Positions 7,977 to 32,015 of a stretch of 32,015 nucleotides of DNA are shown here, piece after piece. How positions within the stretch are numbered: position 1 is the stretch's first letter; every line of letters starts with the position of its first letter. A model generated the notes under the pieces. That model had not been told where the DNA came from and searched no databases. It saw nothing but the letters and a program-made list of their open reading frames with translations. The position numbers and the translations under genes are program-made. Source of the DNA: Flavobacteriales bacterium (lineage in GTDB: Bacteria; Bacteroidota; Bacteroidia; NS11-12g; UBA955); NCBI GenBank assembly GCA_947487055.1, contig CANKVN010000018.1:1-32015 (forward strand). Direction: 5' to 3'.

Positions 7977-9109
7977 TGCTATACTACCTATTTAAATATC
8001 TGGACAGCATCAACGTAGCCGGGGCCGGGGTGTTTCAATACATTTCCTTTAGGGCCAGCATGGCAGGAATTATGAGCTTGCTTATAGCCTTACTGATTGG
8101 CAAACGCATTATTCGCTGGCTGCAGAAAAAGCAAATTGGCGAAGAAATCCGCAATTTGGGACTGGAAGGTCAATTGCAAAAAAAAGGCACACCTACCATG
8201 GGCGGCATCATCATATTGCTGGCAATTATTATCCCAACCTTATTGCTGGCAAAGATTGACAATATTTATGTGCTTTTGATGCTAATTAGCACCATCTGGA
8301 TGGGCACCATTGGCGCCATCGATGATTACATTAAGGTTTTCAAGAAAAACAAGGAGGGCATGAAAGCCACCACCAAGCTCATCGGACAACTCTTTTTGGG
8401 TGCTGTAATTGCCATTGCCATTGACTATGCGCACAAGAAGGCAAACATTCCATTGGAGACCAACTTACCCATTACCAGCCACAAATTCAGTTATTCAGAC
8501 CTCATCCCCGGCGAAAACAATGCCTGGTTCATATACCTTCCATTCATCATATTCATTTGTATGGCGGTAACCAATGCGGTAAACCTTACAGACGGCATAG
8601 ACGGACTGGCAGCCGGAACAACTGCCATTGTAGGCGTGGGACTTGGAGTACTGGCATACGCAGCCGGAAACGTAAAACTGGCTGAATACCTCAACATTAT
8701 TTATGTGCCGCAAAGTGGAGAAGTGGTGGTGTTTTTAGCCGCCGTTATTGGCGCATGCCTTGGCTTCCTCTGGTACAATGGTTATCCGGCCCAGATTTTC
8801 ATGGGCGATACCGGTAGCCTTGCTTTGGGTGGAGCAATAGCCGCTGTTGCCATCATCATTAAAATGGAGCTGCTGATTCCCATTTTGTGCGGCGTATTCT
8901 TTGCCGAAAGCCTCAGTGTGGTTTTGCAGGTTGGCTGGTTTAAATACACCAAAAAGAAATATGGTGAAGGAAGACGCATTTTCCTCATGAGCCCGCTGCA
9001 CCATCATTTTCAAAAATTAAACATCCCGGAAAGCAGGATTACCCTTCGGTTCTGGCTGGTAACGATCATTCTAGTACTTATATCCATTGCATTGCTAAAA
9101 CTGCGTTGA
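7976..9109 (+). CDS. mraY: Phospho-N-acetylmuramoyl-pentapeptide-transferase MraY
   Basis: MraY moves phospho-MurNAc-pentapeptide from UDP onto undecaprenyl phosphate, forming lipid I in the inner membrane. It is 377 residues long with about ten membrane segments. Signature residues are D116-D117 (AIDDYIK), D206 in NLTDGIDGLAAG, D278 in GDTGSLALGG and the HHH cluster 342-344 (PLHHHFQ). The motif GTPTMGG is present near residue 71. It starts with ATG in TAATG, sharing one base with the murE stop, and ends in TTGA, overlapping murD by 4 bases. Confidence 0.97.
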   Translation: MLYYLFKYLDSINVAGAGVFQYISFRASMAGIMSLLIALLIGKRIIRWLQKKQIGEEIRNLGLEGQLQKKGTPTMGGIIILLAIIIPTLLLAKIDNIYVLLMLISTIWMGTIGAIDDYIKVFKKNKEGMKATTKLIGQLFLGAVIAIAIDYAHKKANIPLETNLPITSHKFSYSDLIPGENNAWFIYLPFIIFICMAVTNAVNLTDGIDGLAAGTTAIVGVGLGVLAYAAGNVKLAEYLNIIYVPQSGEVVVFLAAVIGACLGFLWYNGYPAQIFMGDTGSLALGGAIAAVAIIIKMELLIPILCGVFFAESLSVVLQVGWFKYTKKKYGEGRRIFLMSPLHHHFQKLNIPESRITLRFWLVTIILVLISIALLKLR

Positions 9110-10443
9110 GTAAAAAACTGGTCATATTGGGAGCAGGCGAATCGGGCACGGGCACCGCTGTTTTGGCAAAAGCCAAAGGGTGGAATGTGTTTGTTTCCGA
9201 TTTGGGTCAGATCCAGGAAATTTACCAGCAAGAATTGAACGACAATAACATCCAATGGGAAGAAGGCAAACACACAGAAGCCCTGGTACTCGATGCTGAT
9301 GAGATTGTAAAAAGCCCAGGCATACCCGATAAAGCACCAATGGTTGTGGCTGCAAGAGCAAAAGGCATTCCCATTATTTCCGAAATCGAATTTGCCGGAC
9401 GATATACGCAGGCAAAAATGATTTGCATTAGCGGAACGAATGGCAAAACAACCACTACCCTGCTAACCTTCCACATCCTTAAAAATGCAGGGCTTAACGT
9501 AGGGCTTGGAGGCAATATTGGCAAGAGCTTTGCGCGGCAAGTTGCACTGGAAAATCACGATATCTACGTGCTGGAAGTAAGCAGTTTTCAACTGGATGGA
9601 AATTTCAATTTCCGCGCCCACATCTCCGTACTCACCAACATCACCCCCGATCACCTGGATCGGTATGATTACGAAATAAGCAAATACGCAGGCAGCAAAT
9701 TCAGGCTCACGCTGAACCAGCAAGCAGAAGATTATTTTATCTACTGTGCCGACGACTCAATAACACAGGAATACATGCACCTAAAAACAGGAAATGCAGC
9801 ACTATTGCCATTTTCGGTAAAAAACAGCTACGCTCCCGGGGCATATGTAACCAACAACACACTTCACATTCAACACAACAAACAAAACATCACCATCAAT
9901 ATGGAAGAAATCTCACTTCGTGGTATCCACAATACCTACAACAGCATGGCAGCCGCAGTAGTGGCCAGCCTACTTGACGTTCGCAAGGAAAGCATCCGCG
10001 AAAGCCTCTGCAATTTTCAAAATGCAGAACACCGCCTGGAATTTATCAACCGCGTGAACGGCGTGGAATACATCAACGATTCCAAGGCAACCAACGTAAA
10101 CAGTGCCTGGTATGCGCTTGAAAGCATGGAAAAACCGGTGGTTTGGATTGCAGGCGGCGTAGACAAAGGAAACAACTACAAAGAACTGAAAGCGCTGGTA
10201 AAGGAAAAAGTCCGCTATATCATTTGTCTGGGCTTGGACAACATCAAAATACATCAGGCTTTTCAGGATGATGTGGACATGATTATCAACACCATGAGCG
10301 CCAAAGAGGCAGTGCATGTAGCCAGCAGGCTTGCTCAGAAAGGCGATTGCGTACTGCTTTCTCCTGCATGTGCCAGTTTCGACCTGTTCGACAATTACGA
10401 AGACCGTGGCAGACAATTCAAAGAAGCCGTAAGGAACCTCTGA
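9106..10443 (+). CDS. murD: UDP-N-acetylmuramoyl-L-alanine:D-glutamate ligase MurD
   Basis: MurD adds D-glutamate to UDP-MurNAc-L-Ala. The N-terminal nucleotide-binding text VILGAGESGTGTA is at about 6-18, the ATP loop GTNGKTT at 110-116, and NITPDHLDRY plus the C-terminal YINDSKATN and LLSPACASFD blocks are intact. Length is 445 residues. The start is a TTG at 9106 in TTGA, overlapping the mraY stop, the same arrangement as murE. The family N-terminus fits this start directly and no alternative upstream start exists without entering mraY. Confidence 0.96.
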   Translation: MSKKLVILGAGESGTGTAVLAKAKGWNVFVSDLGQIQEIYQQELNDNNIQWEEGKHTEALVLDADEIVKSPGIPDKAPMVVAARAKGIPIISEIEFAGRYTQAKMICISGTNGKTTTTLLTFHILKNAGLNVGLGGNIGKSFARQVALENHDIYVLEVSSFQLDGNFNFRAHISVLTNITPDHLDRYDYEISKYAGSKFRLTLNQQAEDYFIYCADDSITQEYMHLKTGNAALLPFSVKNSYAPGAYVTNNTLHIQHNKQNITINMEEISLRGIHNTYNSMAAAVVASLLDVRKESIRESLCNFQNAEHRLEFINRVNGVEYINDSKATNVNSAWYALESMEKPVVWIAGGVDKGNNYKELKALVKEKVRYIICLGLDNIKIHQAFQDDVDMIINTMSAKEAVHVASRLAQKGDCVLLSPACASFDLFDNYEDRGRQFKEAVRNL

Positions 10444-21600: not shown

Positions 21601-22676
21601 TGATCATGCGCTTACCCATCTTCATTTTTATCTGCTTTTACACCCTGTTTGCCAACGCACAAAGCTACCGCGGCATGTCGGTAACAGGGCGCAACTCCGC
21701 GTGGATTTCAGGCAGCAAGGGTATGGTTCTGCGAACCAATAACGGAGGTAAGCGCTGGGATACCATTGGTCCGAAACATTTTCAGGGAAAAGATTTTCGT
21801 GACATCCATGCATTTAACCACAGGAAAGCCATTATTATGAGCAGTGGAGACAGCGGTGTTGTGTTGCAAACCGGCAATGGCGGCCAAAGCTGGGATACCC
21901 TATACACCGATTACCGGCCAGGGGCTTTTCTGGATGCTTTCGATGTGAGAAAACACAGGCTCCTGATGGTTGGAGACGGCATTCCTTCCCAAAAAATGTA
22001 CATTTACCAGTCGTTGAACATAAAAAGCAACAACAGCTTTACACCCCTGACAATATTTGCCAAAACCAGGTGGGAATACTTCCACAACGGATATGCGCCT
22101 GATAGCACATCTTCCTATTATGCGGCTTCGGGCAGCAATGTGCAATGGTGTGGTAAAACCCAATTTTACGCCATCCCTATTATCGACAACAACAGTATTT
22201 TCATCTCCGCACGCGGAAACTTAATCAGGTTTTTCAGGCAGCTGCCATTCCAAAAACAAAAGGCGGGAGGTGCTTATGGATTCCACATGTCGGGGAAAAA
22301 TGGCGTTGCAGTAGGTGGTTCCTTTTACAAGCCAGAAGCAAGGGATAGTGTGGCCTGCTACACCAACGATGGCGGAAAAACATGGACACCCTGCAGCACC
22401 ATGCCGGGCGGTTACCGAAGCGGCGTTTGCAGCAACAAATCCGGGAAAATTTGGATTTGCACCGGGCCCAATGGCAGCGATTACAGCACCGATGGCGGAA
22501 AAAACTGGAAACCCCTGTTTTATGTACAAGGATTTAACGTTTGCAGCATCCGCGGCAATTATCTCTGGATTAGCGGAAAAGCATCTGCACGCATTCGGTT
22601 AAAAGACTTGCTGAAAGTGCAGCGTGAAGCCGAAATCATTCGCTCTTCGCCTCGTGGTATTCCTCCTCGGTATTGA
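21600..22676 (+). CDS. Secreted YCF48/BNR-like beta-propeller protein
   Basis: This 358-residue protein has a signal peptide (about 1-20, ending ANA). It carries four Asp/Asn-box repeats of the form (T/S)xxGGxxW: TNNGGKRW (46-53), TGNGGQSW (91-98), TNDGGKTW (255-262) and STDGGKNW (296-303). This matches YCF48-like or BNR propellers that Bacteroidota annotators call oxidoreductase or photosystem assembly factor; neither enzymatic role is supported here. The start may be ATG 21600 or ATG 21606. It is alone on its strand, divergent from the Fe-S gene. Its last 41 bases overlap the 3' end of the convergent FAD gene. Confidence 0.85.
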
Positions 22677-24216
22677 TTTCCCAAAGATTGTCCTTGCTGT
22701 GAATCCCCGTTAAAATATTGTCTACCGCTGTCATGGCGGTGAGCATGCTGTGGTCACTGTTGTTGTATTTGTGCATGCCATTTCTGCCAATCGGGAATAA
22801 ATTCCCTACCTGATTGAGGTATTGCATCACAGCCGGAAACTCGCTGTAAGAGCCCGTGTAGGCCGGATAGGTTTTTTCCATTCGAATGATGGTGCTGTCC
22901 AGCACCTCTTCCTTATCAATGATTCCGATGGCCTGCAGCTCATCCATGGCCATGGCCATAAAATCCGGGTCGGACAAAGACCACAATTCATCGCCAACAT
23001 TGCAGAAATACTCCAGTCCAAGCCATGTTGTAGAGGGGTCTGCTACCAAATACGGGCTCCAGTTATTGAAAACCTGCAAACGCCCCAGTTTCACATTGCG
23101 CTCCTGTATATAAATCCAGTTGTCTTTGATACCCACACCTGTTTTCTGCTCCCGGTCACCAATTTTCAGGCTTTTGCACAACAAACCCACGGTAATAAAA
23201 TCCCGGTAAGGCAATGCCGTAGCGATGGCATGAACCTTTGAATCCACTTCAAATGAAAAAGCCTCAAACAGGTCTTTCACCGGCATGGTGCTAAAAACCA
23301 GATCTGCAGCAAAAACAACCTTTTCAAGGCCATTATTGGCAGCAACCACCTCGGTAATTTGCTTTTCATTGCCGTTTAACTGCACCACGGGATGGTTCAA
23401 TAAAATCTGACCGCCCATTTCCTGCACACGCTGCGCCACCAATTCCCACATTTGGCCGGGTCCCAGTTTCGGATACAGAAATTTTTCAATCAAAGAGGTT
23501 TCCGTACCCTTTTGCCCAATGGCATTGGGTCCCTGCTTTTGAAAAATCTGTTTTACGGCATGCGCAATGGTTTTGCTTACCGACAAGCCTTTCACACGCT
23601 GTGCGCCCCAATCTTTGGAAATCTGGTTGCACTTAAATCCCCATACCTTTTCGGTGTAATCCTTGAAAAACGTGAGGTAAAGCGCTTTACCAAACCGGTT
23701 GATGATGAAATCTTCCAGGGTCACTTCCGGCTTTTTGGGAAACAAACGGATGTAGGCGTAGGAAAACAAAATATTCAACATGCGCACCACACCGAGGTTG
23801 CGGATGGTTTGCATACTTAGGGTAACGGGATAGGCAAAGAATTTACCCAGGAAATAAATGCGGCTCAGGCGATTCCGGACCAGCATCACAGCCTCCACCT
23901 TTTCGGGGTCTGCTTCAACGCCGTCTATTTCCCTTGTTTTTCCGTGATAATGAATGTGGGCATGCGCAGCACCTTGTTCCACGGGCATCATGGACATCCA
24001 CCATTCCATCACGCGGTCGCTTTTGCTAAAAAACCGATGACCGCCAATATCCATGCGGTTTCCTTTATAATTTACCGTTCGCGATATGCCTCCAATGCAA
24101 TCGCCGGCCTCCAGAACAACCACCTCATATTCGCTGCTTCGTGACAATAATTCAAATGCCGCAGTAAGTCCGGCCGGGCCGGCACCGATGATGACTGCTT
24201 GCTTTTTATTGCCCAT
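22636..24216 (-). CDS. NAD(P)/FAD-dependent oxidoreductase, UDP-galactopyranose mutase / amine oxidase-like
   Basis: The 526-residue protein opens with an FAD-binding Rossmann loop, [13 protein letters not shown] (8-20), an acidic residue ending strand 2 ([11 protein letters not shown]) and then [13 protein letters not shown], typical of the flavoprotein group containing UDP-galactopyranose mutases and protoporphyrinogen-oxidase-like enzymes. A block [24 protein letters not shown] lies near the middle, and [22 protein letters not shown] near the C-terminus closes the FAD site. It lies 33 bases after a GT2 glycosyltransferase, suggesting a glycan or glycolipid pathway. The exact substrate is not known. 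Confidence 0.85.
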
Positions 24217-24249
24217 TGTTGGTAGCGAAACGAAGTTGATTCGCTGCTT

Positions 24250-24966
24250 TTATTTGCTGAAAAAATTATATTTCAGGATGCACCAAATGGCCCTGAAACC
24301 ATCTTTCCAGCCAATTTTCTTTCCTTCTTCGTAGGTTCTGCCGTAGTAGCTTATCCCTACCTCATAGATGCGCACATTGGGCACCCTCGATATTTTGGCG
24401 GTCACTTCAGGTTCAAAACCAAAACGCTTTTCACGCAAGGCAATTCCCTGGATAATCTCACGGCGAAACAACTTGTAGCAGGTTTCCATGTCGGTGAGGT
24501 TTAGGTTGGTGAACATATTGGACAAAAAAGTGAGCATTTTATTGCCAATAGAATGCCAGAAAAACAAAATCCTGTGAGGATTTCCACCCATAAAACGGCT
24601 GCCGTAAACAACATCCGCAAAGCCATCCAAAATGGGCTTAAGCAACACATTATATTCATTGGGATCGTATTCCAAATCCGCATCCTGAATAATCACATAA
24701 TCTCCGGTAGCTTTGGTAATACCCGTATGCAATGCAGCTCCTTTTCCCTGGTTAACTTCATGTTTAAAATACTGAATATTAATCTCGGGATGCTGCGCCA
24801 TGTATGACCTAATGGCATCCTCGGTATTGTCCTTGGAACAATCGTTTACAATAATGATCTCCTTGGCGATACCATTGATCAATGATACCGCTTTCACTTT
24901 GTCCAGAATGAGGTGAATGGTTCTACCCTCGTTGTAAGCAGGTATTACGATAGAAAGCGTTGACAT
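24250..24966 (-). CDS. GT2-family glycosyltransferase, dolichol-phosphate mannosyltransferase-like
   Basis: This is a GT-A enzyme of 238 residues. The start [25 protein letters not shown] (41-48), [12 protein letters not shown] (72-83) and the metal-binding DAD at 95-97 match the DPM1-like branch that transfers a sugar from a nucleotide donor to a polyprenyl phosphate. There is no C-terminal membrane domain, as in soluble DPM1-type enzymes. It lies directly upstream of the flavoenzyme gene and is probably co-transcribed with it. Confidence 0.9.
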
Positions 24967-25005
24967 AAAAAAGCAAAACTAATCAATACGGAACAATGAG
25001 CGGGA

Positions 25006-25623
25006 TTATATTTTCAACCGGCAATTCATGAGGCCGGGAACCAGGAACACCTTGCCCGAAGCCTCTTCCACGCAGCGATAGCGGGTGCGCATGCGCTCTC
25101 CTTTGATGAACGTGCGGCCATCTTTGGTGGAAAACGGAGTGTTGTAAGGCACTTCTTCTACCAAAACCCAGGTGGTATCGGCATCGTATTTCCGCAAGGT
25201 CCTCACCAGCTGCGGACTGCTGCAACTGCTCGCTTTGGGGTTACCCAAATACTGATTCAGCGAAACGTGCACATCCGCCGGCAAAACCGATTGTTGAAAA
25301 ACCGGCAAACTCACTTCTTTAAAAAACAATTTCCATTCCTGGCCATGCGGAAACACACGGCCACGGTGTTTTTCAAAATTAAGCAAATGAGCAACCTCGT
25401 GGAGAAAGGTGATCAGAAAGGCGTATGGATTTAAATCCTTGTTTACGCTGATGCGGTGGTTTTCGCCGGGCATGGGAGGACGGTAATCGCCATATTTGGT
25501 GGCCCTGGGTTTTTTGATGTACAGGTGAATGCGGTGTTGAAGCAGCAAATCAGCGGCATAATCTTCCGTACCTACGGGTAGGTATTTCTTCAGAACCACA
25601 AGCAGCTGTTGCCTTTCAGACAT
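25006..25623 (-). CDS. SprT-like zinc metallopeptidase-fold protein
   Basis: The 205-residue protein has HEVAH at 75-79 (zinc ligands H75 and H79, catalytic E76) and a third histidine in FPHGQEW (H93), the SprT/Spartan arrangement. The C-terminal part (about 160-205) looks like a small beta-rich domain (TRYRCVEEASGKVFLVPG), but the four cysteines of the zinc ribbon found in many SprT proteins are not there. Cellular SprT-like proteins in bacteria are little studied; a role in proteolysis of DNA-bound proteins is known only for the eukaryotic relative. It overlaps the lhgO stop by one base. Confidence 0.85.
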   Translation of the reverse strand: MSERQQLLVVLKKYLPVGTEDYAADLLLQHRIHLYIKKPRATKYGDYRPPMPGENHRISVNKDLNPYAFLITFLHEVAHLLNFEKHRGRVFPHGQEWKLFFKEVSLPVFQQSVLPADVHVSLNQYLGNPKASSCSSPQLVRTLRKYDADTTWVLVEEVPYNTPFSTKDGRTFIKGERMRTRYRCVEEASGKVFLVPGLMNCRLKI

Positions 25624-26819
25624 CAGAAGTTTTTCAGCGCCAATTCGCTAACGGTTTCGCCAATGCTTAAACTGCTGGTGGCTGCCGGCGAGGGAGCATT
25701 CAACACATGGATGCAACCAGAGGCCTCTTTGATGTAGAAATCGTCAATCAATCCGCCATCTTTGTCGCAAGCCTGGGCGCGCACACCAGCACCTGCGGGC
25801 TCAAGGTCTTCCTCCTTAATTTCTGGCACCAGCGTTTGCAAAGCACGTGTAAAAGCCGCTTTGGAAAAACTGCGGTAATATTCACCCATGCCTGTTTTCA
25901 AGTATTTCAGCGCCACCTTGCGAAAACCGGGCCAGGAAATACTTTGCCAAAACTCGGACCAGTTGAAGGATGTGCGCTTGTAGCCTTCACGCTTAAACGC
26001 AAAAACGGCATTGGGACCCGCCTCAATTTCGCCGGTAATCCTGCGCGTGAAGTGCACGCCCAGAAAGGGGAAATTGGGATCAGGAACCGGATAAATCAGG
26101 TTTTTTACCAGGTAGGCTTTTTCCGGCTTGATGCTATAGTATTCTCCACGGAACGGAATGATGCGCACATCCAGGTTTTGACCGGCCATGCCGGCAATCT
26201 TATCGCAATACAAACCGGCGCAATTGACCATGAGCTTGCAAACCAAGGTGCGCCCAGGGGTTACCACTTCCACCCTTCCCTGCTGAACATCGATATCGGT
26301 GACCATGTGGCCAGTGAGAATTTCGCCACCCAGCTGCGTAAACCTGTCGGCTATTTTTTCAGCCACCAGCCGATAATTCACAATGCCGGTTTGGGGCACC
26401 CAAATTCCTTTAATGCCGCTGCAATGTGGTTCTATCGCCTTAATTTCTGTATCTGTGAGGTATTTGAGGCCGGCAAGGCCATTGTCCACACCCCGCTGGT
26501 AAACCTTTTCCAGCTGCCCCAGTTCATCTTCCTTGATTGCCACGATAACCTTTCCGCATAAATCAACAGGGATATCCTTTTCCTTGCAAAAATCCAGCAG
26601 CATGTGGTAGCCACGGATGCAATTTTCCGCCTTCAGGCTGCCCGGCTTGTAGTAGATTCCGGAGTGAATGACACCGCTGTTATTCCCGGTCTGGTGGTTT
26701 GAAATGCGGTTTTCCTTTTCCAAAACCACCACTTTTAGATCAGGACGTTTTTCCTGAATCTTAAGGGCCGTGGCAAGCCCCACGATTCCCCCACCAACAA
26801 TAACAATGTCTGTTTGCAT
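25623..26819 (-). CDS. lhgO: L-2-hydroxyglutarate oxidase/dehydrogenase LhgO
   Basis: LhgO is an FAD enzyme of the D-amino-acid-oxidase fold that oxidises L-2-hydroxyglutarate to 2-oxoglutarate and passes electrons to the quinone pool. The 398-residue product has the FAD loop VGGGIVGLATA (8-18), and NNSGVIHSGIYYKPGSLKA, RGEYYSI and FLGVHFTRRITGEIEAGPNAV, all typical of the LhgO/L2HGDH group. The C-terminal VLNAPSPAATSSLSIGE fits as well. The start is the ATG at 26819, 33 bases after the DUF2851 gene stop. No 2-hydroxyglutarate pathway partner is visible nearby. Confidence 0.92.
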   Translation of the reverse strand: MQTDIVIVGGGIVGLATALKIQEKRPDLKVVVLEKENRISNHQTGNNSGVIHSGIYYKPGSLKAENCIRGYHMLLDFCKEKDIPVDLCGKVIVAIKEDELGQLEKVYQRGVDNGLAGLKYLTDTEIKAIEPHCSGIKGIWVPQTGIVNYRLVAEKIADRFTQLGGEILTGHMVTDIDVQQGRVEVVTPGRTLVCKLMVNCAGLYCDKIAGMAGQNLDVRIIPFRGEYYSIKPEKAYLVKNLIYPVPDPNFPFLGVHFTRRITGEIEAGPNAVFAFKREGYKRTSFNWSEFWQSISWPGFRKVALKYLKTGMGEYYRSFSKAAFTRALQTLVPEIKEEDLEPAGAGVRAQACDKDGGLIDDFYIKEASGCIHVLNAPSPAATSSLSIGETVSELALKNF

Positions 26820-26852
26820 GGATTAAAGTGGCAAAATAATTCCAGAAAGGCA

Positions 26853-28145
26853 TTAAGTTGTCGTGATTTTTTCCTCATTTCTGATGATTTTTTGCCCGAC
26901 ACTGCATTCCAGGCATCGCTGCCGGCTGCAATACAAAGCCTGCAAACCCATACAGGCCTGGCTGTCATAGGCCGAACTGTTGATAAATCCCATGGATTGC
27001 CAATATCTGGTAATGCTGTTGTTTTCCGGTGGAATTGCGGTCAGCAAATCAATGGACCGCTCCTGCAATTCCTCCGCTCCCAGGTGTTTGCCATAGGTAA
27101 ACATCATCGGCAAAATGGCGTTCACTATAATGCCATTGATGGTATCCGGCCCGGGAGCCGCATTGCGCTCCGCACAAACAGCACCAAAACGAAAATGGGT
27201 TTGCCAATAAGGATGCGCTGGATAGGACAGCAATCCTTGCAGTTCGCTCAGCGACCTGGCCTCCATCAACCTCACAAACAGGCTGTCCCAATTGCACAAA
27301 ATGGCGAGAAACTGGGCAATGCGAAGCGATGGGAAATTTGGAGGCCTCAACCGACCAAACTTCCAGGCGGCAGGATTCATGGGCTTTATCTGGTGTTTTG
27401 CCTGCAAAAATTGATATTCTTTCCAAAGCGCTTTGGGATAGGCCTCTGTAAAATCCGGCGACAGCATTCCTGATTGCCCAAACAGCAGGGCTTCCAGCGC
27501 GGGTGGATTGTGCCGGTATTTTTTTACCAGGGCAAACGGGCAAGCATCCGTGAGCATTTCCATGGCATCATCGTTTACTTTTCTTCCAAGATACCTTCCC
27601 ATCATTTTGTACATTACCTCCTCCCAGTGATTCATGGTTTTTTCGGCCATGGAAGCCGCTTTTTCGGCCTTTTGGATCATGCGCTCCGTGAGCACACGGT
27701 GTTTCATTTGCAGCATTTCCCTTTCAAACGAAACCGGATTGTGTGCGGCGCAGGGCACCTTGCTGAGGTTTTTGCTAAGCGTTTGCCAGGCATTCAGGTA
27801 ACCTGCAGGAATCTTATCATACAGCTCCAAACAGGGAATTACGGTGCCATCCGTGCGGGCAATATTGGCATCGTTGCGGTAAACCACGTGCAGAATTACC
27901 GTATCGTAGGCCTTATCGACCTGGTGGTTGTGTTTTTGCCAATCGGAGGCAAACACATGGATTTCCACATGCCCGCTCCAGGCCATTTCCCCAATCCGGA
28001 TGCGCGCCTCAGAAAAATCGGGGCCGCTGTTTGTGTTGGCGCTTCCCCGGTTTTCCAACACCAGCGGCAAGCCGTCTGTGGTTTGCAGTTGCTGCGTATT
28101 GAACAGCCCATATTTCCATAAAAAATGCAAAAAATATTCCTGCAT
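26853..28145 (-). CDS. DUF2851 family protein
   Basis: This 430-residue protein is typical of a Bacteroidota family of unknown function. The N-terminal part contains GPDFSEARI (41-49), WSGHVEIH (56-63), SDWxKHNHQxDxAY and VILHVVY. The C-terminus carries four cysteines, C398, C406, C411 and C414 (YCSRQRCLECSVG). The PD...ExH spacing in the N-terminal block and a cysteine cluster at the C-terminus recall nucleases with an iron-sulfur clamp, but this is inference. It is followed by lhgO and preceded by a 26-base dyad that may control it. Confidence 0.88.
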   Translation of the reverse strand: MQEYFLHFLWKYGLFNTQQLQTTDGLPLVLENRGSANTNSGPDFSEARIRIGEMAWSGHVEIHVFASDWQKHNHQVDKAYDTVILHVVYRNDANIARTDGTVIPCLELYDKIPAGYLNAWQTLSKNLSKVPCAAHNPVSFEREMLQMKHRVLTERMIQKAEKAASMAEKTMNHWEEVMYKMMGRYLGRKVNDDAMEMLTDACPFALVKKYRHNPPALEALLFGQSGMLSPDFTEAYPKALWKEYQFLQAKHQIKPMNPAAWKFGRLRPPNFPSLRIAQFLAILCNWDSLFVRLMEARSLSELQGLLSYPAHPYWQTHFRFGAVCAERNAAPGPDTINGIIVNAILPMMFTYGKHLGAEELQERSIDLLTAIPPENNSITRYWQSMGFINSSAYDSQACMGLQALYCSRQRCLECSVGQKIIRNEEKITTT

Positions 28146-28336: not shown

Positions 28337-28735
28337 CTATCTCGGCACCTCGCCTGTTAATCGGGCAGATTCGGGTTCGGGAATGCCGCAGACATCTATT
28401 TGTTTTATAAAGCCGTTTTCGGCTTTAATCAATATCGTTACTTTGTTCGTTTTCCCATCAATGGTATGGGCCAGCACAATGCAGGGTTTATCCGGTTCCA
28501 TTTGTGTGCAACAGCCAATTGCTGCCTCTATCCGATCGCCGTTTTGCGCAATGCCATCGCGTATCCGCTGGAATTTGACATCCATATGCTGCAGGTATTT
28601 TTCTTTCCCCACCATTTCCTCAAACACCCATTGCGATGTGTATTTAAAGCCATCGTGCAGCAAATTTGCTATGAAGTAGGTATCCTGATTGTTCCAGGCT
28701 TTTGCGAGTTGAATTATGAGGTCTTTTTCGTTCAT
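28337..28735 (-). CDS. NTF2-like (SnoaL-type) protein
   Basis: This small single-domain protein of 132 residues begins LIIQLAKAWNNQDTYFIANLLHDGFKYTSQWVFEEMVGKEKYL in two adjacent blocks (about 6-48), the helix and strand order of the NTF2-like cone fold. Proteins of this kind serve as small-molecule binding or isomerase-like domains; no catalytic residues can be assigned with safety. It is the last gene with core-like base composition before the AT-rich block, and its upstream region is the structured repeat at 28765-28904. Confidence 0.7.
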   Translation of the reverse strand: MNEKDLIIQLAKAWNNQDTYFIANLLHDGFKYTSQWVFEEMVGKEKYLQHMDVKFQRIRDGIAQNGDRIEAAIGCCTQMEPDKPCIVLAHTIDGKTNKVTILIKAENGFIKQIDVCGIPEPESARLTGEVPR

Positions 28736-28764
28736 GGTGTAGGGTTATACGTTATTGTTTTAAG

Positions 28765-28904
28765 GTTTTGCAGCTACAAGAAGTTGGCGATTTTTTCCAT
28801 CTCGGTTGAACCGAGATTGATGCGGAGAACCAAACTTTGATTAACCACAAATGTGTCTTCGGAGCACTGAACCGCCAAATTCTTGCAGGTGCTGTTAGTG
28901 GCTG
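28765..28904 (-). repeat. Cassette-boundary structured repeat, copy A (attC-like, one end box missing)
   Basis: Read on the plus strand, this runs from GTTTTGCAGCT (28765-28775) to GCTGTTAGTGGCTG (28891-28904). The arms 28769-28789 and 28873-28893 pair at 17 of 21 positions, and an inner perfect hairpin lies at 28799-28817 (ATCTCGGTT-G-AACCGAGAT). The 11-base start and the 14-base end box (12 of 14) are shared with copy B. The GCC(A/G)CTAACG box that opens copies B and C is absent here: GTTTTGCAGCT is preceded by ATTGTTTTAAG. The SulP stop codon lies inside the end box. The layout resembles an integron attC site, but a MITE or structured RNA is not excluded. Confidence 0.6.
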
Positions 28905-30289
28905 GTTTCCTTTTTTATCCTTTTGCTGAAAGCATATTTTGCCACAAAATAAATAAACAGTGCAGAAAGTACTCCAGTCAAAAAGTCCGTCATTGGAACC
29001 ATTACTGCAGTATAAATCATCATCGAAAATTCGAATTTCCCTGCATGTTTGATTTCTTTAATTTCAGATAGTTTTATCATATTGCTGGCAACCCAAACCA
29101 AAATCCCACCAATACAAGCCATAGGAATTAACTCCAAATATTGAGCTAAAAAATAAGCCATTGATAATTTTAGAATGGCTTTGAAATAACCCGCTAGCGG
29201 AGTTGTTGCCCCTGCTTTTATGCTTGTAGCGGTTCTTGCTAAAGCGCCTGTGCAAGGAAAGCCTTGAACCAATGGTGTAATGATCTGAACTAAACCTTGA
29301 CCAAAGAATTCTTTGTCAGGATTAAATGGCGTTCTATCATTTTTTGCTAATCTATCAGCCATCGAAGAACACAAAACACTTTCTACGCCTGATACGAATA
29401 CGATACTAACCACGAAATATACAATATCAAGCATTACACCTCCATTCATTGAAGGCAACAATGGCATTTGTAATTTAAAAAAATTGTTAGGAATGGAACC
29501 AAATAAATCTCGAACCAAAATTAATTTTTTATCGGCCAGCAAAGTAGCTGCTAATAAGGTAGATGTTCCCATCGCAATTACTGGCCCTGGTATATAAATA
29601 GATATTTTAAGCAGATATTTTGCTAAAACAAAAGTGATTACACCTATTAAAACCGACCAAATATTGATTACACCTAAATTGCTAAAAGCTAAGTATAAAT
29701 TATGCAAAAGACCACCTTGAATATCTTCATCTTGCCCAAGGAATTCCTTGAAATTTTCTATACCTAAAATATCTTCAAAATTAGTAAGAGCAATAGATAC
29801 AGCAATACCCACAGTAAACCCAACAATAATTGAATTGGGAACAAGTTTAGCGTATTTGCCTACACCATATATTCCCATAACAATAAGAATGATTCCCGAA
29901 ATAATAGAAACCAATACGAGGAAACCATGTGCTTGTTCAAAAGTTCCACCATTTGCAGGGTCACTATACTTTGCAATCAAGGCAGCAATAACCGGAATAA
30001 AAGCCGCTGTTGGTCCATATACTTGATATTTTGAACCACCAAAGGTTCTACCCACTACACACGCCAATGCACCTGCTATAATGCCATGTTCAGGTCGCAT
30101 ACCCATAGCCATAGCAAAACCCATAGCCATTGGGATAGCTGTCATTGCTACGATTAAGCCAGCACTGAAATCTTTGTATATTACCTTTAACCAATTTTCT
30201 TTGGTTAAGTCCTCCCATCTAGAATCAAAAAAGGTAAAAAATAATTTTATTCGCCCCATAGGGGTAGTTGGAAATTTTGATTTATTCAT
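28895..30289 (-). CDS. SulP-family anion transporter lacking a STAS domain
   Basis: SulP proteins carry sulfate, bicarbonate or other anions across the inner membrane. The family motif near the first membrane segment is seen (DFSAGLIVAMTAIPMAMGFAMAMG, in two parts, about 40-63), with GPTAAF at 92-97 and PCTGALARTATSIKAGATTPLAG further on. The 464-residue protein stops right after the last hydrophobic helix (LFIYFVAKYAFSKR), so the cytoplasmic STAS domain usual in this family is absent. It ends TSH with its TAA inside a repeat box. It lies one base after a Usp-like gene and downstream of a carbonic anhydrase gene; this makes bicarbonate a plausible substrate, by inference only. Confidence 0.9.
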   Translation of the reverse strand: MNKSKFPTTPMGRIKLFFTFFDSRWEDLTKENWLKVIYKDFSAGLIVAMTAIPMAMGFAMAMGMRPEHGIIAGALACVVGRTFGGSKYQVYGPTAAFIPVIAALIAKYSDPANGGTFEQAHGFLVLVSIISGIILIVMGIYGVGKYAKLVPNSIIVGFTVGIAVSIALTNFEDILGIENFKEFLGQDEDIQGGLLHNLYLAFSNLGVINIWSVLIGVITFVLAKYLLKISIYIPGPVIAMGTSTLLAATLLADKKLILVRDLFGSIPNNFFKLQMPLLPSMNGGVMLDIVYFVVSIVFVSGVESVLCSSMADRLAKNDRTPFNPDKEFFGQGLVQIITPLVQGFPCTGALARTATSIKAGATTPLAGYFKAILKLSMAYFLAQYLELIPMACIGGILVWVASNMIKLSEIKEIKHAGKFEFSMMIYTAVMVPMTDFLTGVLSALFIYFVAKYAFSKRIKKETSH

Positions 30290-30290
30290 T

Positions 30291-30689
30291 TTATATTATT
30301 GTTAATTTTGATTTAGTGATGAATTTATTAGGATTTACACCAATTTTATACTCAAGATTCTTAGGCACAAAACAGTTAGAAATGTCATTACCTTCAAGAA
30401 AATTTTTGAAAGCATTAGTTGTAAAACCATGAAACGGTAGAATGTTTATTCTGCATTTTGCAGCATATTTTACTTTGATTTCCTCAAACATAGCTTCAAA
30501 TTCCTTAGGCATTTTTTCTTTCAAAAACTTTGTCTGACTATAAAACAGTAAGTCTGTAATTGAATCGTTCAAGAAATCAGAAAACATCAATACACATTCA
30601 AAACCTTCTCCTTCATAGTTTTGAATAAAAGTGTCAAGTTGTTTTAGTGAGTTCTCACTAAAATCTGTTGGAATTAAAACTTTACTCAT
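30291..30689 (-). CDS. Short universal stress protein (Usp)-like protein
   Basis: The 132-residue protein starts SKVLIPTDFSENSLKQLD (2-19), the classic Usp N-terminal strand and loop, but the ATP-binding GxxGxxxxGS C-terminal motif is not found. It is therefore a diverged or non-nucleotide-binding Usp. It sits between the carbonic anhydrase and the SulP gene (46 and 1 bases away), so it is likely to regulate or accompany that pair. Low GC matches its neighbours. Confidence 0.65.
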   Translation of the reverse strand: MSKVLIPTDFSENSLKQLDTFIQNYEGEGFECVLMFSDFLNDSITDLLFYSQTKFLKEKMPKEFEAMFEEIKVKYAAKCRINILPFHGFTTNAFKNFLEGNDISNCFVPKNLEYKIGVNPNKFITKSKLTII

Positions 30690-30735
30690 TTTTATTCAAT
30701 TTGAATTGTGCAAGGTAGTATGTTTCATTGCTTTT

Positions 30736-31377
30736 TCATACAATGAAAGTAGTATCTGCATAGTAAGTAACTTGTCCTGTGGTTAAATCGTGCATTCCTC
30801 CAATAATGCCAATTTCTCCGCTTTCTATCATGTGTTCAAGAATAGTACTTCTCTCCATAATAGCTTTTACGGTTCTTTTTACATTAATGGCGGCCACATT
30901 TTCTACAAAAATGGCATTTTTAGAGGTGCGATTATCTTTTGTTTCTAACTCGTCATCTACAGCTGGTCTTATTTTTGCAAGCAAGGCAGTTAAATTACCC
31001 ATTTCGGCATGGTCGCAAGCTCCTTTTACTGCCCCGCACTTACTGTGGCCCAAAACTACTATTATTTTTGAACCAGCCAATTTACAGGCAAATTCCATGC
31101 TACCTAATATATCTTCGTTAATGACATTCCCGGCAATTCTTACACTGAAAATGTCACCAAGTCCTTGGTCAAAAATAAGCTCAGCAGAAGTTCTGCTATC
31201 TATGCAGCTTAAAACCACAGCGAATGGATGTTGTCCGTCAGATGTTTCATTAGCCTGTTGTAAAAGGTTGCGATTTGCCTTTAAATTATTGACAAACCTC
31301 TTGTTTCCTTCTTCTAGCAATTTCAAAGCCATTGCTGGTGTAATTGCTTCTTGTAATTTCTTTGTCAATGTCTTCAT
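30736..31377 (-). CDS. Beta-class carbonic anhydrase
   Basis: This enzyme interconverts CO2 and bicarbonate. The zinc site is complete: C58, with D60 and R62 in SCIDSR (the Asp-Arg pair that gates the zinc), then H111 and C114 in GHSKCGA. Length is 213 residues, with a leading helix (about 10-35) that in beta enzymes helps dimer formation. It is the first gene of a three-gene unit with a Usp-like gene and a SulP transporter, and follows the structured repeat at 31412-31548. The context suggests bicarbonate supply or pH handling. Confidence 0.94.
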   Translation of the reverse strand: MKTLTKKLQEAITPAMALKLLEEGNKRFVNNLKANRNLLQQANETSDGQHPFAVVLSCIDSRTSAELIFDQGLGDIFSVRIAGNVINEDILGSMEFACKLAGSKIIVVLGHSKCGAVKGACDHAEMGNLTALLAKIRPAVDDELETKDNRTSKNAIFVENVAAINVKRTVKAIMERSTILEHMIESGEIGIIGGMHDLTTGQVTYYADTTFIV

Positions 31378-31411
31378 TTTTTTATTATTTTTTATCGTTG
31401 TCGTTTTAAAC

Positions 31412-31548
31412 TTGCCACTAACGTTTTGCAGCTTAGCTCAGTGGCGGCAACTTTATAGTTAGTTGTAAATATATACATTTTTCCTTTTGAGCGGTTTCCG
31501 GCTTAGAAAAATTAACCAGCTATTGCGCTAAACCGCTGTTATAGGCTG
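31412..31548 (-). repeat. Cassette-boundary structured repeat, copy B (attC-like)
   Basis: The element begins TTGCCACTAACG (31412-31423), which runs through a shared G into GTTTTGCAGCT (31423-31433). It ends with GCTGTTATAGGCTG (31535-31548), a 12-of-14 match to copy A's end box. Inner arms AGCGGTTT (31490-31497) and AAACCGCT (31530-31537) are perfect complements. The two ends are themselves roughly complementary (GCCACTAACG against GCCTATAACAG read on the minus strand), as R' and R'' are in attC. The last 27 bases of the gene at 31520-31981 lie inside it. This is the only complete copy in the window. Confidence 0.6.
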
Positions 31549-31981
31549 TTTCTTTACGATTAATTTTATACAGTATCTTCGTGATTAACACAACTTGAAT
31601 TAACAATGTTGGAAAACTAGCTATTAATGCACTACTAAACATTTCCTTTTCGGTAAATGTACTCCAAGCAACAATTCTATCACGAAATAATAATAAAGTT
31701 ACTTTGTAAAATGATAATACCGCAAATGGAATTCCAATTAATGCATACTTTATTAATGAATTCCAATTTATTATTTTGAGTAATAAATATAATATTATCA
31801 ACGGTATAGCAATGTAAAACAAAGAAATATAAAAGGTTTGTTGAAGTATAAAGCAGTCCAAACAACTGGCAGCAGGTCCATATTGAAGCAATAATAATAT
31901 GTCAAAAAAAGGCTGAAAGATTGACACAAATAGAATGAAGAGTATTGATTTTAATAGCTTGCTTTGTCTTATGTTTTCCAT
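31520..31981 (-). CDS. Small four-helix membrane protein with a CxxC, unknown function
   Basis: The 153-residue protein has four likely membrane segments (about 11-32, 46-69, 76-98, 117-137). The loop between the first two holds C40-L-D-C43, the position of the DsbB redox CxxC. The second periplasmic cysteine pair of DsbB and its Arg after the CxxC are missing, so a disulfide-exchange role is only a possibility. The final residues AYNSGLAQ are encoded inside repeat copy B. GC is about 25 % by hand count, much lower than the adjoining cassette genes. The ATG at 31981 lies 24 bases after the CGTTAGCGGC box at the right edge. Confidence 0.7.
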   Translation of the reverse strand: MENIRQSKLLKSILFILFVSIFQPFFDILLLLQYGPAASCLDCFILQQTFYISLFYIAIPLIILYLLLKIINWNSLIKYALIGIPFAVLSFYKVTLLLFRDRIVAWSTFTEKEMFSSALIASFPTLLIQVVLITKILYKINRKETAYNSGLAQ

Positions 31982-32003
31982 GTTTCAGCTTAGTGTGTTG
32001 AAA

Positions 32004-32015
32004 TTGCCGCTAACG
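32004..32015 (-). repeat. Cassette-boundary repeat, copy C (cut by right edge)
   Basis: TTGCCGCTAACG matches the first 12 bases of copy B (TTGCCACTAACG, 31412-31423) at 11 positions and in the same orientation. It lies on the 5' side of the single-gene unit, where an attC of the preceding cassette would sit. The rest of the element would lie outside the window. Confidence 0.5.

Follow-up and report, generated by a model that had tools for sequence, protein, structure and literature searches.

A gene cassette of an integron begins, after the G of the crossover point (G|), with bases complementary to the R'' box at its own far end; the R' box of an attC site is therefore expected to agree with the R'' box of the following site and not with its own. 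Here we analyze a stretch of 32,015 bases (the window), which is the whole of contig C18 (CANKVN010000018.1) of a Flavobacteriales bacterium (GenBank assembly GCA_947487055.1, 2.34 Mb, 95% complete). A first-pass annotation had noticed three related, attC-like elements in its last part (A, B, and C) and had interpreted them either as a Bacteroidota cassette array or as some related system of site-specific recombination. The integron integrase IntI carries a specific region, I2, on which both the capture of cassettes and recombination of single strands depend (PMC4792948, PMC7790495, PMC9668308). For Bacteroidetes proper, the IntegronFinder 2 study names a single complete integron, that of Salinibacter (PMC9024848), and integrons and attC sites have been described in phages, in a report that does not mention Bacteroidota (PMC9892861). 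We found no description of an I2-less integron variant in the open full-text literature; most subscription papers and preprints lay outside this search, and priority is not proven. We conclude with considerable confidence that a gene-cassette array belonging to an integron-like platform has its distal end in the window, and that an IntI-related recombinase without I2 is linked to sites of this kind.

Results

A sequence check recovered every string quoted in the first-pass annotation. TTGCCACTAACG spans positions 31412-31423 in element B and TTGCCGCTAACG spans 32004-32015 in element C, GTTTTGCAGCT is found at 28765-28775 in element A and again within B, and A and B are closed by GCTGTTAGTGGCTG and GCTGTTATAGGCTG when read on the forward strand. 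The genes concerned all lie on the minus strand (28895-30289, 30291-30689, 30736-31377, and 31520-31981), and the elements are thus best read on this strand, as 5' NNNTAACAGC, a hairpin, and GCTGCAAAACGTTANNNGGCAA 3'. A covariance model (R1), built from 50 aligned copies that all come from outside the window, detects site A (28756-28903, minus strand; 80.1 bits, E = 2.7e-17) and site B (31414-31547, minus strand; 61.3 bits, E = 7.8e-13). Site A forms the distal end of the array. Its R'' box is GCCACTAAC (28902-28894), and its 3' end GCTGCAAAAC is followed by C|TTA, the core G being lost (AAAACCTTA in place of AAAACGTTA). In site B, R'' is GCCTATAAC and R' is G|TTAGTGGC, with the presumed crossover between 31422 and 31421. 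Of site C (32004-32015, minus strand), another attC-like site, only the terminal 12 bases (CGTTAGCGGCAA) are present, because the contig stops at 32015; contigs also end inside such sites in other genomes (L172, L173, and L187). Folded alone as single-stranded DNA, site A forms a strong structure (z = -3.9) and site B does not (z = -0.4). The block is AT-rich, the two cassettes having a GC content of 0.35 and 0.28 compared with 0.47 in positions 1-28735. A and B, together with the stub C, are real attC-like sites, far beyond chance.

The 50 aligned copies define a compact structural family of near-constant length, with TAAC in 50/50 and GTTA in 47/50 copies and a stem of 18 pairs, 17 of which show compensatory changes on both sides. 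In this stem, 94% of the cells are paired (the four TAAC/GTTA pairs included), compared with 70% in shuffled alignments and 25-42% when the partner strand is slid, and double changes number 219 versus 66 in the shuffles. The sites thus have the imperfect hairpin of attC, in which structure is kept more than sequence. One-sided wobble changes are rare except in two columns, which would suggest DNA rather than RNA, by argument only. The canonical R boxes are not found: each box fits the RYYYAAC/GTTRRRY consensus in only 2/50 copies, in line with the earlier remark that the boxes of the window depart from it.

The family is widespread. An exact 20-mer from the 3' end of site B (GCTGCAAAACGTTAGYGGCA) occurs in 36 stretches of the genome contigs searched, essentially all from Bacteroidota or allied groups, including Flavobacterium, Algoriphagus, Pedobacter, Runella, Chryseobacterium, and many metagenome-assembled genomes. 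Model R1 places 6 sites in the window's genome, finds sites in 74/108 genomes of the order and in 177/395 sampled genomes of the phylum (45%, in 99/171 genera), and brings the copies in relatives to hundreds. Placement is not random, as all six sites of the window's genome directly follow the end of a same-strand gene. Four of them stand singly outside the window (G000, C30:20541-20644, C37:17893-17992, C41:3508-3607, and C64:6882-6998); they are 100-117 bp long, each directly after a same-strand gene, and are likely lone cassettes or remnants. Sites of the 20-mer/attC type are also present on nine viral contigs (L064-L072, e.g. L064:5571-5707). In L064 the genes near the sites lie on the opposite strand, and one reading frame seemingly starts inside a site.

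We next compared the boxes of neighboring copies. All six positions match between the R' box of one site and the R'' box of the next in 23 of 30 adjacent pairs of a first set and in 61/89 pairs of a larger, model-placed set (permutations: mean 5.5, maximum 14), and none of 20000 permutations reaches the observed mean box match of adjacent pairs. Within one copy, a 6/6 match is seen in only 2/124 cases. We rejected a rule by which R' pairs with R'' inside a single copy; it is neighboring copies that match, as cassettes demand, and units are mostly 0.2-2.3 kb long. In the window itself, GTTAGTGGC of site B is the exact complement, over 9 bases, of the R'' box of site A. The units between sites thus behave as exchangeable cassettes, each opening with bases that fit its own R''. 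This bears directly on whether the sites could instead be dispersed non-coding repeats at gene ends, that is, elements resembling miniature inverted-repeat transposable elements (MITEs), transcription terminators, or structured RNAs. Such repeats would account for hairpins directly 3' of stop codons and for many copies per genome, but neither a MITE nor a terminator predicts that the 3' end of one copy is tied to the 5' end of the copy that follows. Homology between units moreover stops at the box and not at the hairpin (see below), and Rfam returned no match for the window or for five carrier loci; we consider this explanation extremely improbable.

The array of the window comprises at least two cassettes, with A as its distal end and its head either beyond the contig end or lost. 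Cassette 2 (28764-31421, minus strand) carries three genes and opens with the start box TTAGTGGC, which pairs with its own R''. The first encodes a 213-residue carbonic anhydrase family protein (30736-31377, minus strand; Pfam Pro_CA, E = 6.6e-39; NCBIfam NF011765 over its cut-off). The second encodes a 132-residue protein (30291-30689, minus strand) without a family match, universal-stress-protein (Usp)-like by eye; a homologue occupies the equivalent position in the corresponding cassette of another genome (G083, below). The third encodes a 464-residue SulP-family anion transporter (28895-30289, minus strand; Pfam Sulfate_transp, E = 9.3e-61), which has a weak match to BicA and whose substrate is possibly bicarbonate. 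Carbonic anhydrase and transporter share one mobile cassette (28895-31377), and their association suggests a portable bicarbonate-handling module. The carbonic anhydrase had no match in the viral contigs. Cassette 1 (31422-32013, minus strand) is bounded by C and B and holds a single gene, for a hydrophobic, membrane-like protein of 153 residues without a family match (31520-31981, minus strand). A further protein of 132 residues, encoded just past the distal array end (28337-28735, minus strand), belongs to the flank and not to a cassette; a search of six further genomes from the genus did not recover it.

The three-gene cassette recurs elsewhere. Its SulP gene has a homologue of 85% identity in G083, which belongs to another genus of the same family and contains a complete platform between ordinary chromosomal genes. 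This platform comprises, in order, an integrase gene (9089-10210, plus strand), an attI site (TATATAATCTAG|TTAGTGGCAAG), the carbonic anhydrase, Usp-like, and SulP genes as the first cassette at attI, an attC site (6480-6346), and a second cassette with a second attC site (2839-2702). DNA homology to G083 (blastn) covers window positions 28892-31422 only, at 83%, and both limits coincide with the cassette ends. Homology to G102 likewise stops at 31422, and no site of the R1 family was found in this genome. In G073, from the same genus, a SulP cassette lies near the same chromosomal gene (window positions 22097-26970 are syntenic) and has a different terminal site; the flank of the SulP gene fetched from G074 shows no synteny to the window. 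Had the synteny of all four genes been kept in relatives without the repeats, the cassette reading of the first-pass annotation would have suffered; instead the three-gene unit is found elsewhere between like boxes and with different neighbors.

To locate attI, we took the 14 loci whose first site could be read and searched their integrase side for the complement of that site's R'' box. The exact complement is present at a fixed place in 12/14 loci, and a thirteenth has one mismatch. This place lies 94-109 bp after the integrase stop codon in loci of the co-oriented type; in the remaining loci it is ∼154-156 bp from the integrase, toward the array. Most of 33 loci have a similar sequence leading up to the crossover, TATA(T/A)A..AG|TTA, several of them with one mismatch. 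A predicted attI site thus adjoins the integrase, with a crossover at G|TT as judged from the sequence.

The carriers of these sites encode IntI-like tyrosine recombinases. They match the integron integrase model TIGR02249 in two parts (∼2-179 and 238-315) and under the cut-off, positions 180-237 being unmatched, as are residues 186-245 of IntI4 in the Protein Data Bank (PDB). A profile built from these integrases sets them sharply apart from XerC/D within the order. The distance from the GxR..E to the HxxRH motif is 127 residues in 22/22 canonical IntI proteins, 91-93 in Xer proteins, and 85-86 in most linked integrases, indicating that the linked integrases lack the IntI-specific insertion (the I2 region), the additional domain of the IntI clade in canonical integrons. 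The earlier suggestion that the recombinase may be unusual agrees with both the motif distance and the TIGR02249 score. Two of these integrases (L184 and L185, G019:C1) are identical over the region used for tree building and lie far apart on a single contig of 2.4 Mb, which suggests that the platform is duplicated within this genome. Among the viral contigs, the search for the integrase gave one distant relative only.

A site is found within 10 kb of the I2-less integrase at 24/40 loci; at 14 of the remaining 16, the contig stops on the array side. Downstream sites share the strand of the integrase in nearly all cases, and upstream sites mostly have the opposite one; arrays are thus read away from the integrase, with L163 and L196 as exceptions. 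This linkage speaks to the question of whether the host XerC/XerD recombinases move the sites, as in Xer-exploiting elements (integrative mobile elements exploiting Xer, IMEX), with the linked integrase incidental. The IntI-model matches of the window's genome comprise only Xer-type recombinases, as such a mechanism would have it. Yet no site accompanies any of 19 Xer loci (0/19 versus 24/40, Fisher P = 3e-6), and attI keeps a fixed distance from the IntI-like gene. We therefore regard a Xer-driven system as very unlikely.

We hold it to be equally improbable that the sites are attC of ordinary integrons, served by a canonical IntI elsewhere in the phylum, with the I2-less integrase as a bystander. 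Canonical IntI over the curated cut-off is indeed encoded in 105/395 genomes of the phylum, and attC sites of canonical integrons are highly variable in sequence (PMC9024848), but no R1 site lies within ∼10 kb of any of 20 canonical IntI loci, many genomes have sites and a short integrase without a match above the IntI cut-off, and the R boxes depart from the canonical consensus as described above. Judging from the open literature, one would expect canonical IntI (e.g. L220-L244) to be far rarer in the phylum. A tree of 92 proteins (midpoint root, moderate backbone support) places canonical IntI as one clade (support 100/99) amid the short integrases, with a long branch leading to Xer; a descent of canonical IntI from the short-integrase group is possible.

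Most array-linked integrases contain an extra N-terminal domain of ∼75 residues with a W(S)xxLKxWxxP motif. Pfam HARP matches 6/20 members at a loose threshold (best E = 2e-4), and a HARP domain of a SMARCAL1-type protein in the PDB gives a weak match; we take the likeness to HARP as a lead only. In a second, phylum-wide sample, sites are nearby for 9/9 integrases with the extension and for 0/6 without it (P = 2e-4). In this count, the read-through extension of L280 was by judgement not taken as an extension, and the sites of some of the nine are only weak. The HARP-like domain apparently occurs in three copies in L073. That it replaces I2 would be a guess.

Discussion

Our analysis upholds the earlier reading of the locus as a Bacteroidota cassette array or related recombination system. 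That this system works like an integron is strongly supported by sequence evidence: the sites, the covariation of their stem, the cassette boundaries, the position of attI, the linkage to the integrase, and the presence of the same cassette in a complete platform. It is not a canonical integron, two of whose defining features, the I2 region and the canonical R boxes, are missing. Each cassette would be a unit able to form a circle, composed of TTANNNGC, one or more genes, GCNNNTAAC, a hairpin, and GCTGCAAAACG. The IntI-related tyrosine recombinase, encoded beside attI (TATAnnnnnAG|TTA), probably recognizes one folded strand of the hairpin, and it would exchange strands at G|TT and so insert or excise cassettes. 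We infer that the linked integrase catalyzes this recombination and that the cassettes of the window may still be mobile.

Several observations weigh against an array of this kind in the window. Site A lacks the core G and the stem of site B contains broken pairs in the covariance-model alignment, so both copies are possibly inactive. In cassette 1, the start box (AGCGGC) agrees with the reverse complement of the R'' box of B (ATAGGC) at 4/6 positions, an imperfect pairing. An integrase beside the array, which the first-pass annotation had proposed to look for, was not found: the contig ends inside the array, no integrase of the I2-less kind is present in the 95% complete assembly, and the search with the IntI model gave only Xer-level matches. 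We observed no recombination product, circle, or difference between strains directly, and recombination itself is deduced from sequence.

More tentatively, and with somewhat less than even confidence, we propose that Bacteroidota hold a second kind of integron, in which an I2-less integrase, perhaps with an added HARP-like N-terminal domain in place of I2, acts on folded attC-type sites, and that canonical IntI may descend from within the I2-less group. If true, this group would be the missing intermediate in integron evolution. With platforms that combine attI, attC-type hairpins, cassettes, and an I2-less integrase across the phylum, the origin of integrons would become directly testable, and a large reservoir of mobile cassettes would have been missed, given the share of sampled phylum genomes with sites.

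Among described families, the best NCBIfam match of the linked integrases is NF040815 (site-specific tyrosine recombinase/integron integrase, XerA_Arch), with 230 bits for L080, 221 bits for L088, and L086 just below the cut-off of 220; this model is silent on cassettes, attC-type sites, and the N-terminal domain. Xer-exploiting elements such as CTX phage and IMEX share with our system a folded single-stranded site and a tyrosine recombinase without I2 (PMC4792948, PMC7790495), whereas here a dedicated integrase and attI accompany a gene-cassette array. The window resembles a cluster of attC sites lacking an integrase (CALIN) in that attC-type sites and cassettes are found in an assembly without an integrase. 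A CALIN is defined by two or more attC sites within 4 kb and the absence of an integrase. Sites A and B are 2.5 kb apart, but they differ from canonical attC, and an integrase may lie beyond the contig end inside C; the head may be missing through this contig break as readily as through decay. The closest likeness in organization is to chromosomal (sedentary) integrons, such as the Vibrio cholerae superintegron, which also combine a tyrosine integrase, an adjacent attI, co-oriented cassettes, and attC hairpins, with crossover at G|TT and a cassette start complementary to its own R''. The Bacteroidota platforms differ from these in an integrase without the IntI-specific insertion, usually with a HARP-like N-terminal domain and often co-oriented with the array, in R boxes of the form NNNTAAC/GTTANNN, in an unpaired spacer of 1 nucleotide instead of 5, and in A.C mismatches in the stem.

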